In this document: positions 1,097 through 36,342 of the stretch, piece by piece
Numbering within the stretch: the first letter of the stretch is position 1
Layout: each line of letters opens with the position of its first letter
DNA from: Elusimicrobiota bacterium
Lineage (GTDB): Bacteria > Elusimicrobiota > Elusimicrobia > Elusimicrobiales > UBA9959
Assembly: GCA_019135865.1 (NCBI GenBank)
Contig: JAGVVD010000029.1
Location: 1 to 64,000 of the forward strand
DNA length: 64,000 nt
Direction of reading: 5' to 3'
Notes under the pieces: model-generated
Told to the model about the DNA's origin: nothing
Database searches by the model: none
What the model saw: only the letters and a program-made list of their open reading frames with translations
Made by a program: the position numbers and the translations under genes

Positions 1097-2368
1097 CTAG
1101 CGAGAACGCCCGGCGGGCGGAATTACAGAAATGGCGGACTTCCTGCCCAGCAGCGGCGAGACGGCCAGCAGGTAGGCCGCGAGGGGGACCGCCGGGGAGC
1201 CCGGCCGGCCTTCGAGCGCGAGTCTCTTGTCCCCGCCGGGGGACCGCAGGAAAAAATCGGCGCAGTCCCGCAGGGAGGCGGGCGCGGGGCCGCCGCAGGC
1301 TATGGACATCTCCCTCATGCGCACCGGGGCGGCGTATTTGGGCGGGTGGACCAGGTCGCCGAAACCGGGCTCGCGGCGCAGGCGGGCGAAAATACCGGCC
1401 AGGTAGAACAGCGGTCCGGCCTCCTCCGCGAAGACGCGGTTGACGCGGGCGGCGCCCTCCATGAAGGTCCGCGCCCCGCGGCCGGAAAGGCCGCGCGCGG
1501 CGCCCAGGGCGTAACGCTCGGCCGGCGAAACGGGACCCGCCCCGTACTTCCGGGCCAGCCCGGACTGGAAGACCGCCAGGCGGCGCAGCCGGGAAGCGTC
1601 TATCCCCCCCGCGGCGTCCCCGGCGGCGAAGCGCGCCGGCGGCCGCGGCGACGCCAGGTCGGACGGGTAGAACCGCCCGTCGGGAAGCAGCGCGAGGGCC
1701 CGCCCCGGGTCCTCCTCCGCGGGCGCCCCGGCGAAGCCGCTGAAAACGAAACCGGCGGGCGCTCCGCCGGCGGCGAGCGCGGCCGCCGCGGACCTTTTCA
1801 GGCCCTTCAGCACGAGGCGCAGCCGCTCCAGGGCGGCGGGGGTCCAGGTTTCCCCGGCGTCCAGCGCTATCTCCAGCTGTTTGAAACCGGAGCGGGGCCC
1901 GAGGAGTCGGGCTATTTCCGGCAGGCGGCCTATCGAACGCGAATCGAGAACGGCGGCGGCGTGCACCTTCGCGGCGAGGCGGCCGTCGGACAGCGCCGCG
2001 GCCAGCGGGGCGGGGACGACCGCTCGGGCGCGGCGGCCGCCGCGCATATCGAACCGGGCGCTTATCTCCGCGCCGGCGGAGACCAGGTCCCGGACGGCCC
2101 GCGCGGTCAGCAGTTCCGCGGAGGAGACGACCTCCAGCTCCGCCGAAGGGACCGCGGAGCGCGCCGCCCGGAGGAGCCGGAACAGCCGACCGGGGTCTTC
2201 GAGCGGCTCTCCGCCGGTGAAAGCGATCTTGAAGCGCCCGCCGCCGCGGCCGGCGAAGCGCCGCGCGCGGGCCAGCGCCCGGCGCAGGGGTTCCGGCGCG
2301 AGCCCGGAGGTCCCGTTCCCGCCGCCGGGCCATCCGGCGACGATCTCCAGCAGGAAATCCCCTCTCAC
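1097..2368 (-). CDS. Degenerate radical SAM paralog without the Fe-S cysteines
   Basis: 423 residues from a GTG at 2368 that overlaps the TGA of the upstream gene (GTGA), so the two are translationally coupled. It aligns along its length with the rSAM protein at 2365-3753. It keeps the FTGGEPL motif, the DGRFYPSD region, the PGFGDLVHPPKY segment and the C-terminal domain. Where the paralog has SNRCNLACDYC, this protein has AGWPGGGNGTSG, so all three ligands of the SAM-binding [4Fe-4S] cluster are gone. It probably cannot cleave SAM. It may act as a scaffold or pseudo-enzyme partner of the protein encoded just upstream. The frame is open with no other damage, which argues against simple decay. 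Confidence 0.8.
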   Translation of the reverse strand: MRGDFLLEIVAGWPGGGNGTSGLAPEPLRRALARARRFAGRGGGRFKIAFTGGEPLEDPGRLFRLLRAARSAVPSAELEVVSSAELLTARAVRDLVSAGAEISARFDMRGGRRARAVVPAPLAAALSDGRLAAKVHAAAVLDSRSIGRLPEIARLLGPRSGFKQLEIALDAGETWTPAALERLRLVLKGLKRSAAAALAAGGAPAGFVFSGFAGAPAEEDPGRALALLPDGRFYPSDLASPRPPARFAAGDAAGGIDASRLRRLAVFQSGLARKYGAGPVSPAERYALGAARGLSGRGARTFMEGAARVNRVFAEEAGPLFYLAGIFARLRREPGFGDLVHPPKYAAPVRMREMSIACGGPAPASLRDCADFFLRSPGGDKRLALEGRPGSPAVPLAAYLLAVSPLLGRKSAISVIPPAGRSR

Positions 2369-3753
2369 TCCGGCTCCAGGCTGACGGCCAGTTTCAGGCC
2401 CAGCAGGCCGGCCTTGGCGAGCGAATAGGCGCAGAGGTCGGCGGCCGACCCGCGGGCCGGGGCGTCCCCGGCCGGGAACCCGAGGGTCAGGGACTTCGTC
2501 CGGCCCGGCGCGTAGAGGAAAAGGTCCAGGCCGGCGCGCTGCGCGGAAAGCGGCGCGCCGCCCGCGCGCAGCCTGAACGCGGCCGCGGTCTTGTCCGCGG
2601 AATACTTGGGGGAGTGGGCCAGGTCGCCGAAACCGGGAGCGGTCGCCAGCCGCTCGCCTCTCTCCAGCAGCCCGAGATAACCGGACATCTCCCGCGCGAA
2701 AAGCAGGTTGACCCTGGAGGTGTCCCGCAGGTCGCGGGAGAGTTCCCGCCCGGAAAGCCCCAGGGAAAGCCCGCGGTAATATCTCTCCACGGGCGCGCGC
2801 AGACCCGACATGCGCTCGCAGCCGCGTTCGATGCGGCGGAACATGGGTCCGGAGATCATCCGGTCCAGCTTCCGCATGTCTATGCCGCTCTCCAGGTCCC
2901 CCACGCTGAGGTCCCGCCCGCCCGGAGGTATGAGGGCGAAATCGCAGGGATAGAACCGGCCGTCCAGCGCCAGCGAAACGGCCTGCCCTATCATCCCGCG
3001 AAAATCGGAGGCGCCCGAAAGGCCGAAGAGGAAGCGGGGCGGGGGGCAGCCGCCGAGAGCTTCGAGCGGCCTGGACCTGAAGCAGCGGAAAGCGTCCTTG
3101 AGCCGGCGCAGGGCGGCCGCGTCCCACCTGGCGTAGGTCTCCAGACCGAGCACCACCGTGCCGATCCCGAGCCCGCGGAAGAAGTCCAGGGACTCCGGCA
3201 GCAGGCCGATGGTCTCCGGCGTGACGACGGACCAGACGCAGAGGTCCCCGCCCGAGCGCAGTTTTTCCGGCAGAGCGCGGAGCGCCCCGACGACGGCGTC
3301 GAAGGACCCGCGTCCGCCGGGAAAGGTCCGGTGCCTGTCGTGGGCCGCGCGGCAGCCGTCCAGGCTGACGAAGATACGCACGCCGTTGCGGGAAAGGAAG
3401 GAGGCCTTCCCCGCGTCCAGCAGCGTGCCGTTGGTATCCAGCCGCATCCTCATCGCGGGGTACGCGCGGCGTATATAACGGACGACCCGGCGCAGCAGCG
3501 GGAATTCCAGGAGCGGCTCGTTGCCCGTGAAGGAGACGAGCCCCTCCCCGGCAAGGCCGTTCTCCTCCAGGCAGCCGGCGTAAAGTTCGACCGCCCGGCG
3601 CAGCGTAGAGAACGGGAGCACCTTCCTGGCGCCGTCCTTCAGGAGGAAGGAGGAGGAACAATAATCGCAGGCGAGGTTGCAGCGGTTGGAGAGCACCAGT
3701 TCCAGCAGGAAAGGCGAACGGGGGTCCTGCGGCTTCACGCTCTTTTTTTTCAT
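2365..3753 (-). CDS. Radical SAM protein of the nitrogenase-like locus
   Basis: 462 residues. The rSAM motif CX3CX2C is at C25, C29 and C32 (NRCNLACDYC), followed by FTGNEPLLEF (GGEP-like) and DTNGTLLD. The middle part resembles a SPASM/twitch region by layout (DGRFYPCDF, GDLESGID, RAPVERYYRGL) but lacks the usual CX2CX5C. A C-terminal domain of about 100 residues begins near PGFGDLAHSPKY and contains LDLFLYAPGRTKSL. That domain is shared with the rSAM proteins at 1097, 3889, 5391 and 16106. The start at 3753 has a GGAGAG site. A TATAAT box lies upstream at 3805-3810 on this strand. The reaction is unknown; the genes nearby suggest work with the NifHD/NifK proteins. Confidence 0.85.
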   Translation of the reverse strand: MKKKSVKPQDPRSPFLLELVLSNRCNLACDYCSSSFLLKDGARKVLPFSTLRRAVELYAGCLEENGLAGEGLVSFTGNEPLLEFPLLRRVVRYIRRAYPAMRMRLDTNGTLLDAGKASFLSRNGVRIFVSLDGCRAAHDRHRTFPGGRGSFDAVVGALRALPEKLRSGGDLCVWSVVTPETIGLLPESLDFFRGLGIGTVVLGLETYARWDAAALRRLKDAFRCFRSRPLEALGGCPPPRFLFGLSGASDFRGMIGQAVSLALDGRFYPCDFALIPPGGRDLSVGDLESGIDMRKLDRMISGPMFRRIERGCERMSGLRAPVERYYRGLSLGLSGRELSRDLRDTSRVNLLFAREMSGYLGLLERGERLATAPGFGDLAHSPKYSADKTAAAFRLRAGGAPLSAQRAGLDLFLYAPGRTKSLTLGFPAGDAPARGSAADLCAYSLAKAGLLGLKLAVSLEPE

Positions 3754-3888: not shown

Positions 3889-5388
3889 ATGAGCAGAACG
3901 ACGTCACGCCTGAACAAACCCGGTCCCTCCCGCAGCGCGGCGGCCGCCGGAATGAAAAGGCCGGCCTCCCCGGTCCCGCGGCCGGCCTTCGAGGTCGAAG
4001 TCTTCCTGACCAACCGCTGCAACCTCGCCTGCTCCTACTGCTCCTCGCGCCATCTCCGCGACGACAGCGCCGCCAGGAAACTTACCCCGGAACAGCTGGA
4101 GCGCTTCGTGGACCTCCTGGCCTCCGACCGCGCGATAAGGACGGAGTTCTCCGGGCCGGTGCGCCTGGAGTTCGCCGGCGGCGAGCCGCTGATGGAATAT
4201 TCGACGCTCAAACGCGCGGTGGAGTATATCCGGGGACGCGGCCTCGATTTCGAGCTCGCCATCGCCACCAACGGCACGCTCCTGACCCCGGAGCGCGCGG
4301 ACTGGCTGACCGCCAACGGCGTCGACATCAGGATAAGCCTGGACGGGCTGAAAGCGGTCAACGACAGGCACCGGGTCTTCGCCCACGACAGGGGAAGGTC
4401 CGTCTTCGACGCCGTCATGAAGAACATCGCGGCCTGCTTCCCCACGGAACGCCACAGGGCCTATTGCAATATCTCCCCGACCCTCGATCCGGGGACCATC
4501 CCGACCCTGCCGGACACGATCCGTTTTTTCCGCCGGGAGATGGGAGTGCGCAAGCTCAGGATAGGCCTTGAGGCCTTCGGCGAATGGGACGCCGCCGACC
4601 TGCGGCGCCTGCGCCTGGCCCTGCGGCGCTCCGTCCGCGGCTTCCTCGCCCCTCTCGCGCCGGGCGGCGACCCCGGGGAGATAGAGGCCGCTTTCGCCGA
4701 TTTCCCCGTGCGCCAGGACATCCGCTGCTACCGCGAGGGGCCGGAACAGGCCACCGTGACCCTGGCCCTGCTCTACGACGGCTGTTTCTACCCTTCGCCG
4801 GACTTCGTGGTCGCCCCGCCCCCGCCGGAGGAAAAGTACCGCGTCGGGGACCTGGAAAGCGGGATAGACTTCGCGGCGGTGCGCCGGGCTTTCGCGCCGA
4901 TGCTGCGCGCCATAGACCGGAAGTGCCGGTTCCGTTCCGGGCCGCGCTCTCCCGTCGAAGGCTACTACTGGGGGCTGGTGAACCGGTACCCCCGCGGGCG
5001 GATAGAGCGGATACTGGAGAGCACCTCCGAAGTCAACAGGGTCTTCCGCGAAGAGGCCGGCGGTTTCCTCAGGCTCCACCGGCTTTACGCCGGGCTCTCC
5101 CGCGAACCGGGGTTCGGCGATTTCTCCCACGCGCCGAAACACTCGGCGGGCGGCGAGGTCCGCCGTCTGCGCCTGGAGGTCGGCGAAGGGGCCTCCCTCG
5201 CCCGGCTGCGCGGCGAGGTGGACCACTTCCTTTATTCTCCCGGCGGGCGGAAGACCCTTGTGCTGGGGTCCGCCGGGGCGGCGGAAGAAAAGACCGAAGC
5301 CGTCCTCATGTATTCGGCCATGAAGGCCGCCTGGCTGGGGAAAAAGCTGCGCGTGGAACTGGAGCACTTTCCGGGGAGAACGAGGTGA
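3889..5388 (+). CDS. Radical SAM protein of the nitrogenase-like locus
   Basis: 499 residues if the ATG at 3889 is used; an internal ATG at 3952 would still keep all domains, and neither has a strong ribosome site. The CX3CX2C motif is at C44, C48 and C51 (NRCNLACSYC). FAGGEPLMEY and ATNGTLLT follow. The SPASM-like portion reads CFYPSPDFVVAPP, with Ser where SPASM proteins have Cys, then GDLESGIDF and SPVEGYYWGL. The C-terminal domain starts at PGFGDFSHAPKH and ends in MYSAMKAAWLGKKL. It is followed two bases later by a close paralog at 5391. Function is unknown; by family it is likely a peptide- or cofactor-modifying rSAM enzyme. Confidence 0.85.
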   Translation: MSRTTSRLNKPGPSRSAAAAGMKRPASPVPRPAFEVEVFLTNRCNLACSYCSSRHLRDDSAARKLTPEQLERFVDLLASDRAIRTEFSGPVRLEFAGGEPLMEYSTLKRAVEYIRGRGLDFELAIATNGTLLTPERADWLTANGVDIRISLDGLKAVNDRHRVFAHDRGRSVFDAVMKNIAACFPTERHRAYCNISPTLDPGTIPTLPDTIRFFRREMGVRKLRIGLEAFGEWDAADLRRLRLALRRSVRGFLAPLAPGGDPGEIEAAFADFPVRQDIRCYREGPEQATVTLALLYDGCFYPSPDFVVAPPPPEEKYRVGDLESGIDFAAVRRAFAPMLRAIDRKCRFRSGPRSPVEGYYWGLVNRYPRGRIERILESTSEVNRVFREEAGGFLRLHRLYAGLSREPGFGDFSHAPKHSAGGEVRRLRLEVGEGASLARLRGEVDHFLYSPGGRKTLVLGSAGAAEEKTEAVLMYSAMKAAWLGKKLRVELEHFPGRTR

Positions 5389-5390
5389 CG

Positions 5391-6866
5391 ATGAAGACAG
5401 GACCGTCAAAACCGGCCAAGCCGCCCATGCTCGACCTCGAGATCATCATGACGAACCGCTGCAACCAGGCCTGCTCCTACTGCTACACCAGGCATCTCCG
5501 GGGGGGCGCGGAGAACAGGACGCTGACCTTCGCCCAGTTGAAGCGCTTCGTGGACCTGGTGTCCAGGGACCCCAGGATGCGCCGCGCGTTCACCGGGTCC
5601 GTCAAGCTGGAGTTCTCCGGCGGGGAGCCCCTGCTGGAGTTCGACCTGGTCAAAAGGACCATCGATTACATACGCTCCGAAGGTCTCGACTTCGAGCTGG
5701 CCGTGGCCACCAACGGGACCCTCCTGACGAAAGAACGGGCGGACTACTTCTTTCGGAACGGGGTCCTCGCGCGCGTCAGCCTCGACGGGATAAAGCCGGT
5801 CAACGACCTGCACAGGAAATTCGCGGACGGCGGGCGCGGCTCGGTCTTCGAGGCCGTGACGGCAAATCTCAGGAAGGGCTACCCGACGCCGGAGCGCATG
5901 GACCGCTGCTGCATCACCCCCACGCTGACGCCCGGGACCGTGGACGCGCTGCCGGAGATAGTCGATTTTTTCAGGCACGACCTCGGGGCGAGGACCATCC
6001 CGGTAGGCCTGGAGGCTTACGGAATATGGGAGAGGGCCGATATCGAACGCTTCCGGCTGGCTTTACGACGCATGATAGACGGGTTCCTCGGGGCGCTGGA
6101 CCCGGGCTCGGACGTGGAACGCACCGAGGCCGCGTTCGCGGAATTCCCGCTGAGGCGGGAGCTGAAATCGGAGGACGACGGCAGGGAATGCACTTCGGGC
6201 ACGCTCGCCCTGCACTACGACGGCTTCTTCTACCCTTCGCCGGATTTCGTGACCGCGCCGCCGCCCATCGACCCGAAATACCGCATAGGGGACCTGGAGA
6301 GCGGCATAGACCTCGGGCGGCTCGGGGACATACTCTCCCCGATGCTCGACGAGGTCGCCAAAAAATGCCGCTACCGCGCCGGGCCGCGCAATCCGGTGGA
6401 AGGCTACTACTGGGGGCTCGTGAACGGCTATCCGGAGAAAAAAATAGACCGTATCCTGGAAAGCACCTCCGAGCTGAACCGGGCCTTCCAGGAGGAGTCC
6501 CGCTATTATCTCTCCATCTTCGCCATCTACAAAAGCCTCTACATGACCCCCGGTTTCGGGGACTTCACTCACCTGCCGCGCCACAGGGGGGACAAGGAAA
6601 TGCGCTCCCTCCGCCTCGCGGTCCGTCCGGGTTGCTCGCCGGTCAAGCTGCGGGAGAGACTGGACCTCTTCCTTTACTCTCCGGGCGGGCGCAAGGAACT
6701 GGCCCTGGAATGCGCCGGGGAACCCGCGTCCTGCCGGGAACTGGCGGACGGGATGGCGCTCTATGCCGCCATGAAGGCGCGCTATCTGGGGAAGGAACTC
6801 AGGCTCGCGGGGGCGTTCCGTCCCGGACCGCGCCCGGCTCAAAGTCCGTCATTACCCGCGGACTGA
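5391..6866 (+). CDS. Radical SAM protein, paralog of the preceding gene
   Basis: 491 residues from the ATG at 5391, with GAGGTG just upstream; a GTG at 5385 overlapping the previous stop is the alternative. CX3CX2C is at C24, C28 and C31 (NRCNQACSYC), followed by FSGGEPLLEF and ATNGTLLT. As in the gene before it, the SPASM-like segment is FFYPSPDFVTAPP without cysteines, then PVEGYYWGLVNGYP and the C-terminal domain from PGFGDFTHLPRH. The two genes look like a tandem duplication. The 3' end overlaps by 28 bases the 3' end of the convergent NifK-like gene, with no terminator between them. Confidence 0.85.
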   Translation: MKTGPSKPAKPPMLDLEIIMTNRCNQACSYCYTRHLRGGAENRTLTFAQLKRFVDLVSRDPRMRRAFTGSVKLEFSGGEPLLEFDLVKRTIDYIRSEGLDFELAVATNGTLLTKERADYFFRNGVLARVSLDGIKPVNDLHRKFADGGRGSVFEAVTANLRKGYPTPERMDRCCITPTLTPGTVDALPEIVDFFRHDLGARTIPVGLEAYGIWERADIERFRLALRRMIDGFLGALDPGSDVERTEAAFAEFPLRRELKSEDDGRECTSGTLALHYDGFFYPSPDFVTAPPPIDPKYRIGDLESGIDLGRLGDILSPMLDEVAKKCRYRAGPRNPVEGYYWGLVNGYPEKKIDRILESTSELNRAFQEESRYYLSIFAIYKSLYMTPGFGDFTHLPRHRGDKEMRSLRLAVRPGCSPVKLRERLDLFLYSPGGRKELALECAGEPASCRELADGMALYAAMKARYLGKELRLAGAFRPGPRPAQSPSLPAD

Positions 6867-8131
6867 AGGGCGTTCAGCAGCCGGCCGGCCAGGGACCTGG
6901 CGCCGGCATAACCCATAAAAGGCTCGTCGTCCAGGCAATGGTGGGCGTAGGACGGGAAGCCGAGCTCCACGGCCGGAACGCCGCCGGTCAGTCCTCCGGT
7001 GATGGCCAGGGAATTGCCTACGCCCAGGCGCGGCCTGTCGTAACGGCCCAGCGCGGCCAGCGCCTTCGCCGCCTCCGCGACCTCCGGGGCGAACATGACG
7101 AGTTTGGCCGCGGGGCCCGGGGCGGACAGCGGCCGGCTCAAGGAATCGATGAAAACGGCCGGCACCCGCATACATAGCTCGAGCGCGAAGCCGCGGACCG
7201 CGGAATACAGGTAAGGGTCCCCCGCGAAAACGATGTTCTGATGCGCGAGCGCGGCCTGCGCCGGGGCGAGTTCCCGCCTGGCCTCCCGCTCCAGCTTCAC
7301 CAGGGCCGGCGGCAGAGGTCCCCTGAGGCCCGCTGCCGCCCTTACGGAGGCCAGCCAGGCGGACGTTCCCGCTATCCCGACGGGAAGGCCCGTCTCCACG
7401 AGGCGCGCGCCGGTACGGGCGGCCAGCCGCGCGGCGGCCTGCCGGCCGTACGGCATCGAAATCACCAATTCCGCGGCCTGCGCGCGCTCCCAACTCCTGA
7501 ATTTCCCCCCTCCTGGCAGCACGGCCAGCAGGTCCACGCCCGCGTCCGCGAGCAGGCGCTTCAGGCCCGAAAGATTGGCGGAGTGGTCGCGTTCGTTCCT
7601 GTCGAAAAGATACCCGACTATCGCCGCCGAACGGGGTTTCTTGCGGACCCGGCGGACGGGCAGCGCGCAGACCAGCGCGTCCAGCGCCTTCGCGTAGCCG
7701 TCCAGCCAGTCGCCCTCCAGGGAAAGCGGGGGCACTACGGCCACGGGCGCGCCGGACCGGACGCGGGAGGCTATCCCCTCGTAATCCATGCCGATAAGCC
7801 TCATGAAAGGCAGCCCGGTAAGCAGCACCACGCCGTACAGGCCGGAGGCGGCCGCGCTTTCCAGCAGCGCGGAGAGTTTATCCTCCGGGTTGGGCGGCTG
7901 CGGCATCGTGCTGGTCACGGTGCACATCACCCTGTGCCGCCCGTCGCAGGAGAGAAGCGTGGAATGGAGATCGTGGTTGCCGGCGATATAATCCGCCTTC
8001 GTTATGACGCAGCTGGGCCCGTCCACCATGACGGCGGCGTCGGGGACGGCGTTGACCGCGAGATAGACGCCCAGCAGGTAGGGGGTGTCGTAGGTCTTCC
8101 GGAATTTTTCGGGAGCGGGGGCGTTCTTCAT
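6839..8131 (-). CDS. NifK-like nitrogenase component 1 subunit, copy 1
   Basis: 430 residues, nitrogenase component-1 fold, much shorter than true NifK (about 520). Near the N-terminus are LLGVYLAVNAVPDA, VDGPSC (C41) and the hallmark GNHDLHSTLLS, followed by VMCTVTSTMPQ and LLTGLPF. The C-terminus has FPSYAHHCLDDEPFMGYAGA, resembling the substrate or cofactor-pocket region of component-1 proteins. It overlaps the 3' end of the fusion gene at 8128 by four bases (ATGA), so it should be made stoichiometrically with it. No nifE, nifN or nifB is present, so nitrogen fixation is unlikely. Related families that reduce tetrapyrroles or C-S bonds (Bch, Cfb, Mar) show that this fold is versatile. Confidence 0.8.
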   Translation of the reverse strand: MKNAPAPEKFRKTYDTPYLLGVYLAVNAVPDAAVMVDGPSCVITKADYIAGNHDLHSTLLSCDGRHRVMCTVTSTMPQPPNPEDKLSALLESAAASGLYGVVLLTGLPFMRLIGMDYEGIASRVRSGAPVAVVPPLSLEGDWLDGYAKALDALVCALPVRRVRKKPRSAAIVGYLFDRNERDHSANLSGLKRLLADAGVDLLAVLPGGGKFRSWERAQAAELVISMPYGRQAAARLAARTGARLVETGLPVGIAGTSAWLASVRAAAGLRGPLPPALVKLEREARRELAPAQAALAHQNIVFAGDPYLYSAVRGFALELCMRVPAVFIDSLSRPLSAPGPAAKLVMFAPEVAEAAKALAALGRYDRPRLGVGNSLAITGGLTGGVPAVELGFPSYAHHCLDDEPFMGYAGARSLAGRLLNALQSAGNDGL

Positions 8132-10752
8132 CGGAAGTCACACTCGCAAAGTTCCAGCAGGCGGCGGACCGTCTCCAGCGCCCCGTCGTAACCCGGCTCG
8201 AACAGCGCCGCGGAAAAAGGTCTCCGGCCGGCGCCGGTCACGCGCGGGTCCAGTCTCGCGTCGGAATAGACGAGCTTCATGGCGCGGGGCCGCCTGAGCA
8301 GCGCGTCGAGCTGCGCGGGCGCGGAGAAGAAACGCGTCCGCAGCCGCGCCCCGAGCTTGCGCCCGAGACCAAGCGCCGCCGCGGCCGCCGCGCTCCTGGC
8401 CGCGGGGTCCGGCGCGTATACCAGCAGGTCCGCCCCGAAGCCGGCCTCGAGCACCACCGGCAGCACCGGCACGCCGCCCATGAGGGTACCGCCGGCGAGC
8501 GGCTCCAGTTCCTCCGACGAGACGACGAAACAGGCGCGGTAGCGCCCGGCCGCCAGCGCCAGCGCGCGCCGCTCTTTTTCCGCTCCGGGAGCGGGCCCGG
8601 CGGCCGGGGTCCGGCGGCCGAGGGCCGCGAGGACGCCGTCCAGCCAGGCGCGGACCCCGGCGAAACCGTAGGGCGCGGGCGGAACGAGCCATTTCAGCCC
8701 GGCCTCGGAGAAAGCGGCGCACAGCGCGGCGTCGGGGGCGGGCAGCACGGCCAGCCTGCCGCGCGCCGCCGACGCGTAAAGATCCTTCCCGGGCGAAGCG
8801 GTCGTGAGCCCCGAACGCTCCAGCAGCCCGGCGAGCTCCTCCCGGCAATCCCCGAAACCGATAAGGTTGACGTCCACGGAAGGTTTCACTCCCTTGAACG
8901 CCGCCAGTTTGCGGGCCATGAAAGCGGCGCGGGCTTCGGCCTTGGCCGACGCGAAGCCGGGGAGAATACTGCCGCAGTTCCCCGGCGGCTCCGCCGCGCC
9001 GGGCTCTTCTTCGGGCCGCTCCGACAACCCGGCGCTGTCGCTGCCCAGCTGCACCGCCGCCACGCCGCGCTCTTCCTTTACCCGTTCCAGCAGTCTGCCG
9101 GTGTCTCCGGCCAGCAGCATCGGCGCGCAGCTGAGGTAGAATTCCACCAGTCCGCCGGGGCCGGCCAGGCGCGCGGCGCGGTCGAGCGAATCGCTTATCA
9201 GCGCCTCGTCGCCGCGGACGGCGTCAAGCGCCCCGAAATCGGTGTTCATCACATGCGCTTCTTCCTTCGGCAGCAGCGGGCAGCGCGAGGAGACGCCGGG
9301 GCCGGCGAGGCCCGGGCGCTCGCGGAACAGGTTCAGCGCCCCGTTGTCGCAGCAACTGAACCGGCACTCGATATCGCCGTGCTCCACCATGACCGCGCCC
9401 TGCGGTACGCGCAGGTCCGCGCCGCCCGGCGGGAAGATGAAACGCTGCCACTGCCCCAGCCTCATGTGCGGGAGGATGAGCGTGCCGAAAGGCCCGGCCT
9501 GATTTCCCCGCTCGGAGAAAGAACTTATTTTGGCGTAATGGTCCCCGCCGCGGCCGAAGTACTCCGTCAGTTCCGCGTATTTAAAACCGGCGAGGCCGGC
9601 GGCGGCCGCCGCGAGTTCCTCGCCCAGACCGCGCGCCTGGTGCTCCGCCTGGCCGGGGTAGAAACAGACCGCCCAGTCGGAGAGCCTTATCGGCCCGTCC
9701 CGGGAACCGGCGGCGGGGGCGATGACGATCTTCAGCGTCCCTCGCGGCGAAGTCCTCCCTTTCGCCGGCCCCTGGCCCCTCTCCCCCCAGTCGAAGGAGG
9801 TCGGCACGGTCCACTCGCAGACGATCTGCCCCCCCTCCAGGCCCGTGGGTTTCATGCGGGCCCTCGTGAAGGCGGCGGCCAGGCCGCGGGAAGACCCGGA
9901 ACGGCCGGCCGGAAGGACGCTCCGCGGGGCGGGCGGCCGGGCGGCCGGCGGGCGCCCCTCGGTAAAATCCGAGAACTCCCGGTCGCTCATGGCCCTGGGC
10001 GGCGAAGACCCCGGCCGCGCCGCGCGTATGGCGGCGCAAAGACCGCGCAGCGCCGCGGCGAAAGGGCTTTTCGGAGAGGCCAGGACCGCCGGCACCCGCC
10101 CGCGTTCCGCGGCCGCCACGGCCGGGTCGCGCGGGATGACGGCCAGCACGCGCGTATTCACGGCGGCCGCGAATTCCGCCGCCGTTCTTACGCCGGCCGC
10201 GTTCTTGGCGTTGACCGCCAGCCCGGCCAGGTAGACGCCGTTGCGGGCGTAGTTCTCGACCATCTTTATCAGTTTGTTGGCGGAATAGAGCGAAAGGAGC
10301 TCCTCCGACACCACGATAACGACCTTTTTGGCGAAGCCGCGGCGCAGCGGGGCGGCGAAGCCGCCGCAGACCACGTCGCCCAGCACGTCGAAGACCGCCG
10401 CCGTGTAGCCGTCCTTTTCGAGGAGCCCCGAATCCCTTACGGCGTCCAGCATGACGCCTATCCCGGTACCGGCGCAGCCCAGCCCGGGCCGGGGACCGCC
10501 GACCTCGATGCAGCGCACGCCCTTCACCGGCGCGTCGAAGATGAACTCGCGCAGGCGCGCCTCCGGGTCGGGACCGGGGGAATCGGAAAAAGGCTGGATA
10601 TGGCGGCCCATCAGCGCCAGCGTGGAATCCATCTTGGGGTCGCAGCCGACGTGCAGGACGCTGCCGCCGCCGGCCGCGAGCAGCGCCGACACGTTGGAGG
10701 CCAGCGTGCTCTTGCCTATCCCGCCTTTTCCGAAGAATACGATGCTTTCCAT
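8128..10752 (-). CDS. NifH-NifD-like fusion protein, copy 1
   Basis: 874 residues. Residues 1-255 are NifH-like: P-loop GKGGIGKST (8-16), GCDPKMDST, and the two cysteines that bridge the subunit [4Fe-4S] cluster in NifH, here C93 (GCAGTG) and C129 (VLGDVVCGGF). The arginine of GCAGRG that is ADP-ribosylated in NifH is Thr. A linker with GGQIVCEW and LSDWAVCFYPG (about 300-400) follows, then a NifD-like part with EHGDIECRFSCC near residue 458, EFYLSCAP near 541 and PPAPYGFAGVRAWL. In ordinary nitrogenases NifH and NifD are separate. It is followed by its NifK-like partner. A TAAAAT box at 10779-10784 may drive this copy separately from copy 2. Confidence 0.85.
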   Translation of the reverse strand: MESIVFFGKGGIGKSTLASNVSALLAAGGGSVLHVGCDPKMDSTLALMGRHIQPFSDSPGPDPEARLREFIFDAPVKGVRCIEVGGPRPGLGCAGTGIGVMLDAVRDSGLLEKDGYTAAVFDVLGDVVCGGFAAPLRRGFAKKVVIVVSEELLSLYSANKLIKMVENYARNGVYLAGLAVNAKNAAGVRTAAEFAAAVNTRVLAVIPRDPAVAAAERGRVPAVLASPKSPFAAALRGLCAAIRAARPGSSPPRAMSDREFSDFTEGRPPAARPPAPRSVLPAGRSGSSRGLAAAFTRARMKPTGLEGGQIVCEWTVPTSFDWGERGQGPAKGRTSPRGTLKIVIAPAAGSRDGPIRLSDWAVCFYPGQAEHQARGLGEELAAAAAGLAGFKYAELTEYFGRGGDHYAKISSFSERGNQAGPFGTLILPHMRLGQWQRFIFPPGGADLRVPQGAVMVEHGDIECRFSCCDNGALNLFRERPGLAGPGVSSRCPLLPKEEAHVMNTDFGALDAVRGDEALISDSLDRAARLAGPGGLVEFYLSCAPMLLAGDTGRLLERVKEERGVAAVQLGSDSAGLSERPEEEPGAAEPPGNCGSILPGFASAKAEARAAFMARKLAAFKGVKPSVDVNLIGFGDCREELAGLLERSGLTTASPGKDLYASAARGRLAVLPAPDAALCAAFSEAGLKWLVPPAPYGFAGVRAWLDGVLAALGRRTPAAGPAPGAEKERRALALAAGRYRACFVVSSEELEPLAGGTLMGGVPVLPVVLEAGFGADLLVYAPDPAARSAAAAAALGLGRKLGARLRTRFFSAPAQLDALLRRPRAMKLVYSDARLDPRVTGAGRRPFSAALFEPGYDGALETVRRLLELCECDFR
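10319..10392 (-). repeat. 74-base block identical to one in copy 2
   Basis: This block encodes the NifH-like segment around VLGDVVCGGFAAPLRRGFAKK in copy 1. It is base-for-base identical to 14134-14207 in copy 2, while flanking sequence differs at many synonymous sites. Confidence 0.85.
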
Positions 10753-10815
10753 ATTTCGCGCCGGTCCGCGCGCGCTATATTTTACCTAAAAACGGGAGGC
10801 GCTTCCGGCGAAAGT

Positions 10816-12114
10816 TCAGCGGGGCCCGTTGCCGCTCCTTAAGGCGTTCGCCAGCCTGCCGGCGAGCGTCCTCGCCCCGGAGAAACCGAGGAAAGGTTCG
10901 TCGTTCAGGCAGTGATGTCCGTAGGAAGGGAAACCGAGTTCGACGAAAGGCAGGCCTGGGGCCAGGCCTTCGGTCGCCGCGAAAGAATTGCCGACCAGCA
11001 GCTGCGGCTTGTCGTAGCCCCCCAGCGCGGCGACCGCAGCGGCGGCAGCGGCCATGTCGGGGCGCAGGAGCAGGAGCTGCGGCGGCCGGACCGGCAGTTT
11101 CTCCCGGACACCGGAGTCAAGCGCCGCCGCCGGCACGCGCAGTCTCAGTTCCCCGGCGAAAGGGACGAAAGCCCCGAACAGGTGCGGATCCCCGGCGAAG
11201 ACGGCGCCGCGGTGGGCGAGCACGTCCAGCAGCGGGGCCATCTCCCCGGCGGCCATGCTTTCCTCCGCGGCGACGGCGGCCGGCAGCCCCCCCCGGAGGC
11301 CGGCCGCGCGGCGCAGCGCGGCCAGCCAGGCCGAAGTGCCTTTCAGCCCCATCGGCAGCCCCGTCTCCAGCAGGGCTGCTCCTGAGCGGGCGGCCAGACG
11401 CGCCGCGGCCCGGCGGCCGTAGGGAAGGGAGACGACGAGGTCGGCCTCCAGTCCCCGGGCCAGTTCCCGGAAGGGAACGCCCGACGGCAGCACCGAGACC
11501 AGTTCCAGGCCGCTCAGGGCCAGCAGGCGGCCCAGTTCCGCGAGATTGGCGGTATGATCGCGCTCCCCGCGGTCGAAAAGGTAACCGGCGACGGCAACGC
11601 GGGGCCGCTTGCCGGGACGGCGGCCGCGGCGGCGCGGGGCCGGCAGCAGCCGGACCAGAGCTTCCAGCGCCAGGTCGTAGCCCTCCAGCCAGCCTGCCTC
11701 CAGCGAAAGGGCCGGCACATCCGCCACCGGCGACCCTTTCGTGATCCCCGCGGCGACGCCCTCGTAATCGACCCCGGCCAGCTTGAAGAAAGGCAGGCCG
11801 GTGACCAGCACCGCGGAAAAACCTCCGTCAGCGGCGACCTCGGCCAGCAGCGAAGAGAGCTTCCTCTCGTGGTTGGAGTCCTGGGGCAGGGGGGCGGTCA
11901 TTGTGCAGACGATGCGGTGCTTCCCGTAGGGGGAAAGCAGCGTGGAGCGGAGATCGTGGTTCCCGGCGATGAAATCGGCCTTGGGCATGACGCAATCCCC
12001 GCCGTCCACGACCAGCCCGGCGTCGCTCACGGCGTTCACCGCGAGATAGACCCCCAGCTGGTAGGGCAGGCTGAAAAGCTTCGGAAAAAGATCAGCGCGC
12101 GAAGTAGCGTTCAT
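10816..12114 (-). CDS. NifK-like nitrogenase component 1 subunit, copy 2
   Basis: 432 residues, homologous along its length to the copies at 6839 and 28934. It has LGVYLAVNAVSDAG, VDGGDCVM (Cys at about 43), GNHDLRSTLLS, VCTMTAPLPQ and LVTGLPF. Near the end is FPSYGHHCLNDEPFLGFSGA. The start at 12114 lies 23 bases inside the 3' end of the upstream fusion gene, a strong sign of coupled translation. A 63-base gap separates it from copy 1 of the fusion gene. Role inferred: beta-like subunit of a component-1 heterodimer with the NifD part of the fusion. Confidence 0.8.
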   Translation of the reverse strand: MNATSRADLFPKLFSLPYQLGVYLAVNAVSDAGLVVDGGDCVMPKADFIAGNHDLRSTLLSPYGKHRIVCTMTAPLPQDSNHERKLSSLLAEVAADGGFSAVLVTGLPFFKLAGVDYEGVAAGITKGSPVADVPALSLEAGWLEGYDLALEALVRLLPAPRRRGRRPGKRPRVAVAGYLFDRGERDHTANLAELGRLLALSGLELVSVLPSGVPFRELARGLEADLVVSLPYGRRAAARLAARSGAALLETGLPMGLKGTSAWLAALRRAAGLRGGLPAAVAAEESMAAGEMAPLLDVLAHRGAVFAGDPHLFGAFVPFAGELRLRVPAAALDSGVREKLPVRPPQLLLLRPDMAAAAAAVAALGGYDKPQLLVGNSFAATEGLAPGLPFVELGFPSYGHHCLNDEPFLGFSGARTLAGRLANALRSGNGPR

Positions 12115-14560
12115 TGAAATCCCAGTCGCACAGCTCCAGCAGGCGGCGCAGCGTCTCCACCGCGCCGTCGAAGCCGGGCTCGAATATACCGGAGGAGAAG
12201 GGGGTCTTCCCGGCCGCCGTCACCCGCCCGTCCGAGCGTATGTCGGAGTAGACCAGGCGCACGGACCGGTCGGCCTTCAGCGGGCGGGCCAGGCCCTGCG
12301 GGGAGGAGAAAAAGACCGGCGCCGGGAACCTGAGCCCCGGCAGCGCGGCCTTCAGCGCGGCGGCGGCCTTCCGCCCGTCGGCCGGGCGCGCCAGCACGAA
12401 AAAGCGCAGGCCTAAGCCGCCCTCGGCCAGCACGGCCGGGACGGGGACGCGCCTGAAAGCCCCGCCGCCGGCGAGCAGCGCCGCATCCCCGGCCGGCAGT
12501 ACGAAAGCGGCGGAAACCCCGGCGGCGCGGCGGCGCAGCCGGGCGTGAGCGGCGAGCGTCCCGGTTGGAGGAGCGGCGTCGAAACCCCGGCGGCCCAGGG
12601 CGCCGGCTATTGCTTCCAGCCAGGCGGCGGTGCCGGCGAGGCCGTACGGCGCCGGCGGCAGCAGCCAACGCAGGCCCGCCCGGTCGAGGGCGCTCTGCAG
12701 AACCGGGTCCGGCGCGGAGAGTACCTGGAGCCTGGCGGCGGCCGAACCGGCGTAAAAATCCTCGCCCGGCTCCTCGGCCGTTATCCCCCGCGAATCGAGC
12801 AGCGCGCGCAGGCCGGGCGGACATTCGCCGTAATAGACCAGGTTCACGTCCCGCGACGGGGACCGGGCCGCGCGGCGGAACTTGCCGGCCATGAAGGCGG
12901 CGCGGCGCTCCGCCTTCTCCGGGGAATGCCGGCCCAGCGAACAGTAGCGCTCCAGCGAGACCTCTACGCCGGTCTCGGCGCCGACGCGGCGGGCCGCGGC
13001 CCCGGCGTCGCTGGCCAGCAGCAGCGGGGAACAGCCCACGTAGAATTCGGCCAACCCGCCCGGCCCGGCCTGGGCGGCGGCGGCGCGCATGGCCGCGAGC
13101 ATCTTCTCGTCGTCGCCCATGACCGCCTCTATGGAGCGCAGACCGGTGGAAGGCTCCCGCTCGTCGGACCTGGGCAGCACCGGGCCCGGCATGTCCGCGC
13201 CGCCCGGCCTGACGCAGGCGTTCTCGCTGAAAGCGCCCAGCGCGCCGCCCTCGCAGATGCAGAAACGGCACTCGTCGTCCCCGTGCATCGCCATGACCGA
13301 GTCCGGCGGCGCCAGGGCGTCGACCTCGCTGCCGGCGAAGATGAAGCGCGGCCAGCTGCCGAAACCAAGGTGGCTCCGCTCCCCCGCCGGGGAGCCCGCC
13401 TGCCGGAGAGCCGGACCGGACCAGCCGCCGGGAGCGGCCAGGGCCGCGGAGATCTCCTCGAAACGCAGCGGGACGAGGCGTCCCGCGGCCGCCAGCAGTT
13501 CCCCGCCGAAGGCCTCCGAGGCCGGGCCGGCGGAGGGATGGAAGCAGACGGTCCAGTCCGAAAAGCCGCGGGCGCCGCCTTTGGAGGCGGCCGCCGGCGC
13601 TATCACGGTCCTGAAGACGCCGCGCGGGGAAGTCCAGTCGAAAAGGAGCTGTCCTCCTTCGATGCCCGCGAGGCTGAATCCCGCCGAGGCGAGCAGTTTC
13701 CCGGGGGCCGCCGCGGAAGGAACGCCCCCCCGGCGCGCTGAGAAAGGACGGGCGGCGGGACCGCCGCCCCCCCCGATGAAAGAGCGGAACTCCTCCTCGG
13801 TCAGGGCGCGCGGCGGCGAGGACGGTACGCCGGCCGCCTGTATCGCGGAACAGAGCTTCACCAGGCGGCGCGCGAAATCGCTTTTCGGGCTCGAGAGCAC
13901 GGCCGGGAGCCGCGCGCGCTCCGCCTCGGCCACCGCGGGGTCCCGGAGCGTCGCTCCGAGAACGCGCGTATTGACCGCGGCGGCGAAAGCCTCCGCGGTC
14001 TTCACCCCTTCCGGCCGCAGCGCGTTGACGGCCAGGCCGGCCAGGTAGACGCCGTTGCGCGCATAGTTGCCCGTCATCGCTATGAGCCGGTTGGCGGCGT
14101 AGAGCGAGAGCGGCGTCTCCGAGGTGACTATCACGACCTTTTTGGCGAAGCCGCGGCGCAGCGGGGCGGCGAAGCCGCCGCAGACCACGTCGCCCAGCAC
14201 GTCGAAAACGGCGGCCCCGTAGCCGGCGCGCTCCAGGAGCCCGCCGTCCTTCATCGCGTCCAGCATTATGCCTATTCCCAGACCCGCGCAGCCGACGCCG
14301 GGCTCGGGCCCGCCGGCCTCCACGCAGTGGACGCCCGGGACGGGGGATCCGAAAACGCTCTCGATAAGGCGGTCCCCGCCGCCGGCCTTGCCGGCGTAAG
14401 GGGGGATATGCCGGCCCATCAGGGCCAGCGTCGAGTCCATCTTGGGGTCGCAGCCGACATGCAGGACCTTGCGTCCGCCGCGGGCCAGCACGACCGTGAC
14501 GTTGGAAGCGATGGTGCTCTTGCCCACCCCGCCTTTCCCGAAAAAGACTACGCTTTCCAT
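12092..14560 (-). CDS. NifH-NifD-like fusion protein, copy 2
   Basis: 822 residues. The NifH part has P-loop GKGGVGKST (8-16), GCDPKMDST, C91 (GCAGLG) and C127 (VLGDVVCGGF). A linker near residues 280-370 carries GGQLLFDWTSPRG and FSDWTVCFHPS. The NifD-like part has MHGDDECRFCICEGG near residue 428 and EFYVGCSPLLLASD near 509. It is the most cysteine-rich of the three at the HGDxECRF site. The ATG at 14560 is four bases after the TPR gene stop, placing it in the 18706-to-6839 operon. ATP-driven electron transfer from the NifH part to the component-1 part is inferred from the family. Confidence 0.85.
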   Translation of the reverse strand: MESVVFFGKGGVGKSTIASNVTVVLARGGRKVLHVGCDPKMDSTLALMGRHIPPYAGKAGGGDRLIESVFGSPVPGVHCVEAGGPEPGVGCAGLGIGIMLDAMKDGGLLERAGYGAAVFDVLGDVVCGGFAAPLRRGFAKKVVIVTSETPLSLYAANRLIAMTGNYARNGVYLAGLAVNALRPEGVKTAEAFAAAVNTRVLGATLRDPAVAEAERARLPAVLSSPKSDFARRLVKLCSAIQAAGVPSSPPRALTEEEFRSFIGGGGGPAARPFSARRGGVPSAAAPGKLLASAGFSLAGIEGGQLLFDWTSPRGVFRTVIAPAAASKGGARGFSDWTVCFHPSAGPASEAFGGELLAAAGRLVPLRFEEISAALAAPGGWSGPALRQAGSPAGERSHLGFGSWPRFIFAGSEVDALAPPDSVMAMHGDDECRFCICEGGALGAFSENACVRPGGADMPGPVLPRSDEREPSTGLRSIEAVMGDDEKMLAAMRAAAAQAGPGGLAEFYVGCSPLLLASDAGAAARRVGAETGVEVSLERYCSLGRHSPEKAERRAAFMAGKFRRAARSPSRDVNLVYYGECPPGLRALLDSRGITAEEPGEDFYAGSAAARLQVLSAPDPVLQSALDRAGLRWLLPPAPYGLAGTAAWLEAIAGALGRRGFDAAPPTGTLAAHARLRRRAAGVSAAFVLPAGDAALLAGGGAFRRVPVPAVLAEGGLGLRFFVLARPADGRKAAAALKAALPGLRFPAPVFFSSPQGLARPLKADRSVRLVYSDIRSDGRVTAAGKTPFSSGIFEPGFDGAVETLRRLLELCDWDFNERYFAR
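14134..14207 (-). repeat. 74-base block identical to one in copy 1
   Basis: Second member of the pair described at 10319-10392; it covers the Cys127 region of the NifH-like domain of copy 2. Confidence 0.85.
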
Positions 14561-14564: not shown

Positions 14565-16112
14565 TCAGCGTCCCTTCGGCCGCGGCCCGGCCGAGCCGCG
14601 ATTTCGAATTATCATGGGCAGAAAGTGTCTCTCCCTCCGCCTGTAGCCTCCGCAGATGTCAAGAATGTATTCCGCTATCCGGCGGCGGCCGGCCGGGTCC
14701 GCCGGCGCCGGGAGGCACATGCCGAGGTCCTTGCGGGCGATGGAAAAAAGCTCAGGCCATTCCCGCTCGGCCAGGGAGAACTCGCGCTCCATGGCCGCGG
14801 CCTCCCCGGTTTCAGAGAACAGGAGCACTTTGTTCAACCGGACCCAGACCCCGCCACTCTCTCCGGAAGCGGATACATCATTGGGCCAAAGGCGGCCGGC
14901 CGTCTCCAGTTCCTTGAAGGCTTCCCTGCTACGGCCAACACGCCTGTAAGCTTCCCCGAGCCAGGTGCGCATTTCCGCGTCCTCAGGAGAGCTGGCCACG
15001 GCTTTCCTGAGACTGGCTAAAGCATTTTTCTTATCACCCAGTTCCAGATAGGCCACCCCCAGCCACCCGGCCGCGTAGAGGTGGCCGCTATCCTTCAGGA
15101 GGGCGACGGCGCGCCTATACTGTTTAAGGAACAGCCGCATCTCGCCCTCCCAGACGACCACGTCCTCTTTCTCTTCCGGGGATGCCGCCCCGAAAGCGTC
15201 CCCGAACTTCTTCAGCCCGCCCTCCACGTCGCCTTCGCATAAAAGCGCTTCGCCGATATAGCAATGCACGTGGGGGTGGGTGTATCCGGAAGAAAGCATC
15301 CGCCGGAATTCCCGGACAGCCTCGGCATACAAGCCGGAAAAAAGCATTGTCTCGCCGGTTATATACCGCGCGAAATCATAGCGCCCTTTGCCTCTGCGCA
15401 GCAACCCATTCAGCGCGCGCTTCCAGCTCCGGCTTCCCAGCGAAGGAATACTCCTCTCCAAAGAACACCGGAGATATGTAAGGAACCCGGAGAGCTCCCG
15501 CCGGACTCTGGTCCTTTTCAGCGCCCGGAGATGTCGGGCATAATAGCCCGCCGGCAGCTCACATTGGACGACCGGGTCCCAGGGGTGATCCGGGTTGAAC
15601 ATCCTCCTCCCGCCGACGGATGAAGTCATCAGCGAAAGGGCCTCACAGGCCTTCTGATAGTGAGAAAGCGCGCATAATACCTGCACGGTCAAAAGATCCG
15701 GCGCCTTATTATTGGACTGCGCGAAGGCGATATCGATAAGTCGCGCGCGCAGTTTCCGCCAGTCCCGGCTATCTCCGTCCGAGGCGGCCTCTTTAAAAAG
15801 ACGCAGCGAGTCGCCCTCGGACGGCCGCCAATCCGCGTGTTTCGAGAGAAAGAAAAAAAGATTTTCTGCCGGCACGTTTCCGGGGTCGAGGGACAGGGAT
15901 TTCCTGAGCCGCCGGAGGGCGCGTCCGCGCTCCCCCCGGCGGGCGTGGGCCATGGCTTTAAGATAATGGACGTGCGCCAGGTCCGGCCTCGCCGCGAGGG
16001 CCCAATCGATCAGGGGAATGGCCTTTTCGTCGTCCCCGGAGCGCAGAAGGCCCTGGGCTAAATGGATGGCCGACTGCAGAGGGTCGGCGCCGGCGGCGGA
16101 GCGTTTCAGCAT
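14565..16112 (-). CDS. TPR-repeat protein in the nitrogenase-like operon
   Basis: 515 residues, no signal peptide. Tetratricopeptide-like helical pairs are visible near the N-terminus (AIPLIDWALAARPDLAHVHY, then RALRRLRKSLSLDPGNVPAE), in the middle (AVREFRRMLSSGYTHPHVHC) and late (ALASLRKAVASSPEDAEMR). It is probably a cytoplasmic scaffold for protein contacts. Its start overlaps the stop of the upstream rSAM gene (ATGCTGA), and its stop is four bases before the copy 2 fusion gene. It could hold the rSAM enzyme and the nitrogenase-like complex together; that is inference. Its ORF is less GC-rich in places than its neighbours. Confidence 0.8.
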   Translation of the reverse strand: MLKRSAAGADPLQSAIHLAQGLLRSGDDEKAIPLIDWALAARPDLAHVHYLKAMAHARRGERGRALRRLRKSLSLDPGNVPAENLFFFLSKHADWRPSEGDSLRLFKEAASDGDSRDWRKLRARLIDIAFAQSNNKAPDLLTVQVLCALSHYQKACEALSLMTSSVGGRRMFNPDHPWDPVVQCELPAGYYARHLRALKRTRVRRELSGFLTYLRCSLERSIPSLGSRSWKRALNGLLRRGKGRYDFARYITGETMLFSGLYAEAVREFRRMLSSGYTHPHVHCYIGEALLCEGDVEGGLKKFGDAFGAASPEEKEDVVVWEGEMRLFLKQYRRAVALLKDSGHLYAAGWLGVAYLELGDKKNALASLRKAVASSPEDAEMRTWLGEAYRRVGRSREAFKELETAGRLWPNDVSASGESGGVWVRLNKVLLFSETGEAAAMEREFSLAEREWPELFSIARKDLGMCLPAPADPAGRRRIAEYILDICGGYRRRERHFLPMIIRNRGSAGPRPKGR

Positions 16113-17629
16113 AAGACGCGGCGCCGCTGGTTCCGTGATCTCCGGGGGGCGCTCTTTCCCGAAGTCTTGATGCCGATCCTGACGCCGTGCTCGGTCAGGT
16201 AAAGCCAGCGTCCGGCATCGAAGCGGGATGTCTCGGCCTCCAGCGTCAGTTCCAGTTTTTTTCCAAGGGAACGGGCCTTCATGACCGAATAGAGAATCAT
16301 CCCCTCCGCCGCGTCCAGGGTCCCGGCGGAGGGATCGGCGGCCTCCAGGACCAGAGACTTTTTCCGCCCGGGTGAGTACAGGAAATAGTCGGTCGCGGCC
16401 CGCAGGCCCGCGAGTCCGGATATCCCGGATACGGCGAGCCGCAGCCGGCCGGTCTCCCTGCCCGCCATATACTTGGGACGATGCGCGAAATCGCCGAACT
16501 CCGCGTCCGACTTGAGCAGCAGCAGTATTTTCTGTATGCGCCAGTACGCACCGAACGCGCGGTCAAACGCGCGGTTCACCTTAAGAGCGTTGCCCAGCAT
16601 CCTGTCCGGGCTTACGCCGCGGTTGGCCGCGTGGAAGTAGCGGCTGACCGGCCAGATCACGCCCACGTTCTCGCCGTAGCGCCGGATCACCGGGAAAGCT
16701 TCCGAATAGATCTCCCTGACCCTGGCGAAATCTATCCCCGTCGCCGGCGTCCCTATCCTGTATTTCTCCTCCCCCGACATGCCGAAAACGGCCTCCCCGG
16801 GGTAGAAATACCCGTCGAACATCAGCGTGACCTCGCGGCAGAAAACTTCGAAATAATCCGAGAGCAGGCGCTGGCTCTCCAGCCGGTAGCTGGCGACGAA
16901 AGAGAAGCAGATGAGCTCGTCCAGGTCGCCGCTCTCCACGATCCCGCGGAAATGGCGCTCCTTTATCTCCGCGAGCGCCTTCTCCAGCCGGCGGATGCCG
17001 GCGGGGTCCCACATCTCGTACTCGTCGAAGCCGAGCGCGACCTGGCGGAAGCCGAGCTCCTCGAAGAAGCGCAGCGTCCTGGGCAGCGAGGCGACCGTCT
17101 CGGAAGTGATGACGGTGGAGACGCAGAAATTCCCGGAGCGCCGCATCGCGGCCGGCAGCCGGCGGAGGTTGCGCAGTACCGTGTCGAACACGGAACGGCC
17201 GGCGCCGTCCCCGAAAACGCGGTGCCTGTCGTGCTCCTCCCGGCAGCCGTCGAGGCTGATCACGAGGAAGACGTCGTTGTCGAAAAAGAACTTCGCCTTC
17301 TCCCTGTCGAGCAGCGTGGCGTTGGTCACCACTTTGATCTCGAAACCGGGATAGCGGCGCCTGACATAGCGCACGAACCGCCTGAGCGTATCGAATTCCA
17401 GCAGCGGCTCCCCGCCGGTGACGGAAACACGCCGCGGCCCGCCGCCGTCGTCCCGGCCGCAGGCGGCGTAAACGTCCACCGCCGCCCGGAGCTGTTCGAA
17501 GCTCAGGGCGCGGCCGGTCTTCTGCGTTATCATGTGCCGGGAGGCGCAATAGGAGCAGTCCATATTGCACCGGTTGGTCAGGAAGACCTCGAGCAGGAAA
17601 GGTTCAGGCGTCGTTCGCGGGTCTTTCAT
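16106..17629 (-). CDS. Radical SAM protein of the nitrogenase-like operon
   Basis: 507 residues. CX3CX2C is at C21, C25 and C28 (NRCNMDCSYC), then VTGGEPLLEF and VTNATLLD. The downstream layout matches the set at 2365, 3889 and 5391: YFYPGEAVFGMS (no SPASM Cys), a GTPATGIDF segment, EFGDFAHRPKYM, then a C-terminal domain with ATDYFLYSPGRKKSL. A tail of about 40 residues is extra. It lies directly upstream of and overlaps the TPR gene. It is the only member of this set cotranscribed with NifHD/NifK genes, which ties the family to them. Confidence 0.85.
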   Translation of the reverse strand: MKDPRTTPEPFLLEVFLTNRCNMDCSYCASRHMITQKTGRALSFEQLRAAVDVYAACGRDDGGGPRRVSVTGGEPLLEFDTLRRFVRYVRRRYPGFEIKVVTNATLLDREKAKFFFDNDVFLVISLDGCREEHDRHRVFGDGAGRSVFDTVLRNLRRLPAAMRRSGNFCVSTVITSETVASLPRTLRFFEELGFRQVALGFDEYEMWDPAGIRRLEKALAEIKERHFRGIVESGDLDELICFSFVASYRLESQRLLSDYFEVFCREVTLMFDGYFYPGEAVFGMSGEEKYRIGTPATGIDFARVREIYSEAFPVIRRYGENVGVIWPVSRYFHAANRGVSPDRMLGNALKVNRAFDRAFGAYWRIQKILLLLKSDAEFGDFAHRPKYMAGRETGRLRLAVSGISGLAGLRAATDYFLYSPGRKKSLVLEAADPSAGTLDAAEGMILYSVMKARSLGKKLELTLEAETSRFDAGRWLYLTEHGVRIGIKTSGKSAPRRSRNQRRRVLC

Positions 17630-21160: not shown

Positions 21161-21167
21161 TAAATCC

Positions 21168-22936: not shown

Positions 22937-22987
22937 ATCTTTGCCGCTCGATCGACACGGCTCAATTTGCGGCACCCGGTAAAACCT

Positions 22988-27105: not shown

Positions 27106-27113
27106 GACCGGCC

Positions 27114-28061: not shown

Positions 28062-28063
28062 CG

Positions 28064-36259: not shown

Positions 36260-36342
36260 CTTAAAGCGCGCGGCCCGTCGCAGAGCTCCGGGCACCGACC
36301 GCGGGCAATCCCCGCAAGGCGAGGACAAGTGCCGCCCTGTTC

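Follow-up and report, generated by a model that had tools for sequence, protein, structure and literature searches.

The window analysed here, the first 64,000 nucleotides (nt) of contig JAGVVD010000029.1 (assembly GCA_019135865.1) from an Elusimicrobiota bacterium of the family UBA9959, carries on its minus strand, at positions 6839-14560, two cassettes that each pair a fusion of a NifH-like and a NifD-like protein (HD) with a NifK-like subunit (K). The open reading frames are present exactly as an earlier sequence-only reading of this DNA had given them, with fusions of 822 and 874 amino acids (aa) and K-like proteins of 432 and 430 aa; two more cassettes, HD3-K3 in the window and a fourth on contig C54 of the same genome, were absent from that reading. 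The HD and K genes of the window are as follows.

12092..14560, minus strand: HD1, NifH-NifD-like fusion, 822 aa; NifH domain at residues 1-265, an extra domain at ~286-375 and a NifD-like part at ~400-822 (C431, C510)
10816..12114, minus strand: K1, NifK/BchB-like subunit, 432 aa (C41); shares 23 nt with the end of HD1
8128..10752, minus strand: HD2, second NifH-NifD-like fusion, 874 aa; 51% identity to HD1
6839..8131, minus strand: K2, second NifK-like subunit, 430 aa; 57% identity to K1; overlaps HD2 by 4 nt
30225..32717, minus strand: HD3, third NifH-NifD-like fusion; GTG start
28934..30247, minus strand: K3, third NifK-like subunit

The Pfam family Fer4_NifH matched the N-terminal (H) domains of HD1 and HD2 with 189 and 198 bits, spanning residues 3-264, and Oxidored_nitro matched the two K proteins with 110 and 121 bits. 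In the C-terminal part of the fusions (D), Oxidored_nitro reached only ~26 bits, below the cut-off, and the NifD-like nature previously proposed for this part was borne out by hhalign profile comparison with NifD and another NflD (E = 6e-10 and 7e-17, respectively). The H domain is complete, as had been read from the sequence, with the P-loop and both cluster cysteines, C91 and C127, invariant or nearly so over 21-67 homologues, as are the K motifs; the residue counts given below refer to sets of 81 D sequences and 98 K sequences. The predicted structure of K (predicted local distance difference test score, pLDDT, of 95) has its best fold match in BchB of protochlorophyllide reductase (DPOR; Z score 37.5 over 398 residues, 3.1 Å) and a similar one in NifK and NifN (Z ~35 over ~395 residues), while a single-sequence search of the PDB with the K N-terminus found nothing. 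In the HD model (pLDDT 82), the H domain has a standard Fe-protein fold (Z 36 over 261 residues), and only NifH-type and related P-loop proteins were among the matches listed in the structural search. Two low-confidence segments of this model, ~266-282 and ~382-401, join the domains and are probably flexible.

Only two cysteines are invariant in D, C431 in the motif HGDxEC and C510 in the motif GCSP (each 81/81), with a third, C811 near the C-terminus, present in 72 of the 81 sequences, and K has C41 conserved in 97 of 98. By profile alignment, C431 and C510 of D occupy the positions of NifD Cys88 and Cys154, C41 of K falls within one residue of NifK Cys95 and BchB Asp36, and the NifK Cys153 position is a proline in 90 of the 98 K sequences. 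The [4Fe-4S] cluster of DPOR is held by three cysteines of BchN and one aspartate of BchB; D has no counterpart of the first, N-terminal BchN cysteine. The two cysteines of D and one of K at the D/K interface would thus resemble the DPOR arrangement without matching it, in keeping with a small Fe-S relay. Of the two metal pockets suggested earlier, the cysteine of HGDxECRF is fully conserved, but a metal site at GHHC is ruled out by conservation (second histidine in 96/98 K sequences, cysteine in only 30/98). K also possesses a charged loop (R182 and E184, 98/98; D186, 97/98; D181, 94/98), of which R182, E184 and D186 have no counterpart in the BchB alignment, and the further conserved residues D54, R67, W142 and H401.

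With Mo-nitrogenase (NifHDK) the system shares its superfamily, the Fe-protein fold and the D/K folds. It differs in that H is fused to D, three of the six P-cluster cysteines (C431 and C510 of D, C41 of K) are conserved, and neither ligands for the iron-molybdenum cofactor (FeMo-co) nor nifB, nifE or nifN accompany them: the FeMo-co ligand positions (Cys275, His442) hold no conserved cysteine or histidine among the D sequences, which fits the lack of both nifB and additional DK pairs. The lack of partner genes noted for the window holds genome-wide, as the host genome (2.95 Mb, rated 100% complete) has four K and four HD genes and nothing else in an Oxidored_nitro search, hence no nifE or nifN, and no nifB was found over cut-off in 21 carrier genomes. 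These absences bear directly on the suggestion that HD and K form a NifEN-like assembly scaffold maturing a metal cofactor for another enzyme. The fold shared by K and NifEN is in keeping with such a role, radical S-adenosylmethionine (SAM) neighbours might assemble cofactors as NifB does, and the window encodes a SufS-like cysteine desulfurase (37634-38929, minus strand; 246 bits against a cut-off of 475); with no NifB, no FeMo-co-like cluster ligands and no NifDK-type recipient enzyme in the genome, a scaffold is nevertheless very improbable. The desulfurase gene is syntenic with HD-K in several relatives.

Curated models for NifH, BchL, BchX and CfbC all scored far below their cut-offs, mostly at about half. 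The H domains of HD1-HD4 gave 178-207 bits against 394 for NifH (TIGR01287), 185-217 against 402 for CfbC (NF033200), 137-170 against 345 for BchL and 122-142 against 331 for BchX, and the BchN/B models gave 30-45 bits against cut-offs of 420-490. When 66 H domains were used for a tree, a branch with a support of 92 separated 48 of the 49 members of the group from true NifH, MarH-like, BchX and BchL sequences, the exception being one long-branched Myxococcales protein. MarH, a Chlorohelix NflH and Endomicrobia NifH formed a fully supported clade that excludes the fusion-group H domains; among PDB sequences, the H domain matches MarH best. The tree contained no CfbC or IsrH sequences, and CfbC is placed by hidden Markov model scores only. 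Grouping with BchL, CfbC or MarH, together with complete partner genes just outside the window, had been named beforehand as the mark of a known system; in the tree the H domains stand apart from BchL, BchX, MarH and true NifH, and the genome contains no known partners.

DPOR (BchLNB) likewise combines an Fe protein with two NifD/K-like subunits and no FeMo-co, and has the closest fold to K, but its H component is a separate protein, its cluster has the three-plus-one ligand set given above in place of the two-plus-one set here, and the Bch models, the charged K loop and the absence of hemB and hemC from the host (see below) set it further apart. CfbCD also lacks FeMo-co, and the H domain scores alike for the CfbC and nifH models, while CfbD is a homodimer without a K subunit, the present host is bacterial and the CfbC score lies under the cut-off. 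The group IV systems MarHDK (methylthio-alkane reductase) and IsrHDK (isethionate reductase) share H, D and K operons that carry a radical SAM gene (PMC11423573), but the fusion-group H domains fall outside the MarH clade, the six-cysteine P-cluster set is missing and the radical SAM genes are of other kinds.

Groundwater Elusimicrobia reportedly carry nitrogenase paralogs for which a tetrapyrrole substrate is said to have been predicted. In one passage of a published paper these paralogs are labelled 'putative tetrapyrrole cofactor biosynthesis genes (group VI)' (PMC9391474). The system in the window very probably corresponds to the group VI paralogs, judged by the reported traits of that group. 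This identification, already suggested in the sequence-only reading, is well supported since the relatives are Elusimicrobia and Myxococcota (Myxococcales among them), the NifH-like domain lies outside known groups and radical SAM genes are the commonest neighbours in deep relatives. The kind of system is thus known, and the fused architecture, the arrangement of cysteines and the disagreement with the predicted tetrapyrrole substrate, which finds no support in the host's lineage, constitute a variant, some of which the founding paper may already report.

The fusion of H to D is not a peculiarity of this locus but is conserved in the host's family; among deeper relatives, separate genes are frequent. 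HD matches occurred in 23 of 150 related genomes at up to five places per genome, with intact fused copies adjoining K, and the fusion with K recurs in ~20 genomes of the host's family (44-57% identity to HD1) and in separate lineages outside it. A misassembly, or a stop codon lost in this strain only, for which the rarity of such fusions is the sole argument, is therefore refuted by independent genomes and can be considered practically negligible. Of 341 genomes of the phylum, 46 contain K, and these belong to two main and two minor families. A K-profile scan of a public genome set identified 78 loci from Elusimicrobia (GW and RIF groundwater genomes among them), Myxococcota/Deltaproteobacteria, Bradymonadales and a small number of other groups. 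In deep relatives, both Myxococcota and other Elusimicrobia, H and D are often separate adjacent genes followed by K, sometimes with H and D overlapping by 4 nt (e.g., locus L064), such that H, D and K stay together across phyla either as a fusion or as adjacent genes. The fusion looks derived because of these separate genes in deeper relatives, and it probably arose more than once: on a tree of the 98 K sequences, the fused state requires at least two changes on well-supported branches and six on the tree as drawn, which, being unrooted, counts gains and losses of the fusion alike. Within the window the two cassettes do lie side by side, as described earlier, but a recent tandem duplication is ruled out by their identities (51% for HD, 57% for K) and their different subclades; cassettes 1 and 2 are old paralogues. 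Several deep relatives have a second, shorter D'K' pair beside H-D-K (L064:11263-13859, L061, L062, L078:1803-4609 and L079:1556-2938), in which K' has the motif GVGC where K has VDGxxC, and the gene order H-D-K-D'-K' of L064 resembles nifHDKEN.

Between H and D the family fusions contain a domain of ~90-130 residues, with beta strands followed by helices, and in deep relatives the D-only proteins carry at their N-terminus a co-linear domain of comparable length. A profile comparison of the two was suggestive only (hhalign E = 0.063), and searches against PDB sequences gave no match (best E = 0.19, an unrelated capsid protein). At the level of sequence, this extra N-terminal domain of D is apparently without a known relative. 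Its origin as a linker created by fusion is disfavoured by the co-linear domain in the D-only proteins, even with the comparison no more than suggestive. Several fused proteins of other Elusimicrobia have no room for the domain, which fits separate fusion events.

The cassettes are embedded among radical SAM genes, of which the window encodes 17, and the immediate neighbours of the three window cassettes are listed here.

16106..17629, minus strand: radical SAM protein (CNMDCSYC); opens the operon, overlaps the TPR gene
14565..16112, minus strand: TPR-repeat protein; same operon, directly upstream of HD1 with a 4 nt gap
5376..6866, plus strand: radical SAM protein; convergent with K2
3889..5388, plus strand: radical SAM protein
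2365..3753, minus strand: radical SAM protein
34913..36328, minus strand: HemN-like radical SAM protein; co-directional with and upstream of HD3; below the hemN, HemW and ChuW/HutW cut-offs
33810..35021, minus strand: radical SAM protein; upstream of HD3
32803..33939, minus strand: radical SAM protein; directly upstream of HD3 with an 85 nt gap

The first operon, in the order radical SAM-TPR-HD1-K1-HD2-K2, is tightly packed, its genes overlapping or lying a few bases apart save for a 63 nt gap that separates K1 from HD2; three radical SAM genes in the same direction precede HD3-K3; and contig C54 has a radical SAM gene, an FkbM methyltransferase gene, K4 and HD4 in order. A radical SAM gene is thus at the upstream end of each of the three operons in the host genome. 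Among deep relatives, 31 of 72 neighbouring same-strand genes encode radical SAM proteins, the commonest family, followed by TPR proteins (~8), with four B12-binding domain proteins and no other recurrent family.

Several other gene groups lie in or near the same region. Genes of the PALP, amino-acid/carbamate-kinase-like, carbamoyltransferase and M20 peptidase families (19919-24299 and 36395-37585) resemble a ygeW/ygeY/yqeA cluster and interleave with the HD3-K3 region, and carbamoyltransferase and M20 genes also adjoin HD-K in several relatives (L043, L045, L056). On the plus strand, 26967-28888 encodes a U32-peptidase-family protein and a neighbour without a family match, alongside a radical SAM gene (25996-27105). 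A His-Xaa-Ser system for ribosomally synthesised and post-translationally modified peptides occupies 43591-54021 on the minus strand, in which HxsA4 (51386-51805) and two HxsB-type radical SAM proteins exceed NCBIfam cut-offs and one more HxsB-like protein as well as HxsC-like and HxsD-like proteins fall below them. In one subclade (L051, L052, L053, L058), HD-K lies, as judged by eye, between a DUF218-like gene and infC-rplT-pheS-pheT with no radical SAM gene nearby.

Collectively, HD and K probably constitute an ATP-dependent, two-component nitrogenase-like reductase in which the Fe protein is tethered to the alpha-like subunit and which acts in radical SAM pathways. The ATP-driven two-component reductase of the sequence-only reading is well supported in this respect, and the enzyme most likely contributes a reduction to pathways otherwise run by radical SAM enzymes because each of the three operons has an upstream radical SAM gene. 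Architecture, conservation, the predicted H and K folds, the distribution and context of the genes and the missing nifB, hemB and hemC are observations; catalysis, cluster type, pocket, stoichiometry and substrate class are inferences. Several points weigh against this interpretation. In eight of the 16 long loci from close relatives, no radical SAM gene lies within ~10 kb, and therefore the pathway link is not obligatory, and the radical SAM locus described for the window is a real feature here but only a partial trait of the group. The family is rich in radical SAM genes anyway, with at least 59 per genome in many members; the number per genome, capped at about 59 scored candidates, is uninformative as a correlate. 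The register of the K cysteine comes from a short alignment with a one-residue offset. Lastly, the prediction of the D part is of moderate confidence, and HD and K were modelled separately, so the interface and pocket are derived from homology.

The same neighbourhood data could be explained if HD and K were an ATP-driven, low-potential electron donor for the Fe-S clusters of adjacent radical SAM enzymes instead of a reductase of a small substrate. Such a role accords with the radical SAM linkage of all three host operons and of most deep relatives, but not with the half of the close-relative loci where no such gene is near. The conserved polar residues suggest a bound small substrate, and radical SAM enzymes elsewhere are reduced by ferredoxin or flavodoxin, so an electron donor of this type is quite improbable.

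For the substrate the precedent is a tetrapyrrole, as to our knowledge all of the characterised FeMo-co-free relatives (DPOR, COR, CfbCD) act by reducing these compounds. A tetrapyrrole reductase making a novel cofactor, acting on a porphyrinoid in the manner of DPOR or CfbCD as the prediction reported for group VI has it, would be consistent with this precedent, with the proximity of the K fold to BchB, with the near-equal CfbC and nifH scores of the H domain, with the B12-binding and HemN-like radical SAM neighbours and with hemB in all 23 carriers outside the host's family. The host, however, possesses neither hemB nor hemC in its complete genome, and hemB is missing from 17 of the 23 carriers in its family, several of which are 95-100% complete. 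In the host's lineage a tetrapyrrole substrate of endogenous origin is therefore unlikely, and the reductase probably acts on something other than a host-made tetrapyrrole. Within the family, hemB is equally rare among carriers (6/23) and sampled non-carriers (7/27), and the K loop residues R182, E184 and D186 are without BchB counterparts. A scavenged tetrapyrrole (heme or a corrinoid) is possible because the host genome encodes B12-binding radical SAM proteins, for which corrinoids, if used, must be salvaged. As a whole, a tetrapyrrole reductase seems rather unlikely, and it can tentatively be proposed that the tethered reductase, with its two-plus-one cysteine cluster, acts on a non-tetrapyrrole compound generated by radical SAM reactions, for instance a modified peptide or a novel cofactor.

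In the proposed reductase, two H domains would pair, bind ATP through the P-loop and share a [4Fe-4S] cluster coordinated by C91 and C127 from each copy. The H pair would then bind to the D/K face, hydrolyse ATP and deliver electrons one at a time to a small Fe-S cluster between D and K, held by C431 and C510 of D, C41 of K and either a non-cysteine ligand or an open site, from which an organic substrate would be reduced in a cavity probably lined by the charged K residues D54, R67, R182, E184, D186 and H401 together with W142, and by D777 and R779 of D. The tether would exchange diffusional docking for docking in cis, and with its two H domains an (HD)2K2 complex could form a single Fe-protein dimer rather than two.

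According to the current view, the Fe protein binds component 1 and dissociates from it again with each round of electron transfer, and a conserved natural fusion provides a defined system in which this association and dissociation step can be tested. The expected 2:2 stoichiometry, with one docked Fe-protein dimer per complex, would bear on half-site models of nitrogenase-like enzymes. For the organisms, a FeMo-co-free member in tetrapyrrole-deficient hosts implies either another substrate or scavenging, and a non-tetrapyrrole substrate, if true, would represent a new substrate class for the FeMo-co-free nitrogenase family.

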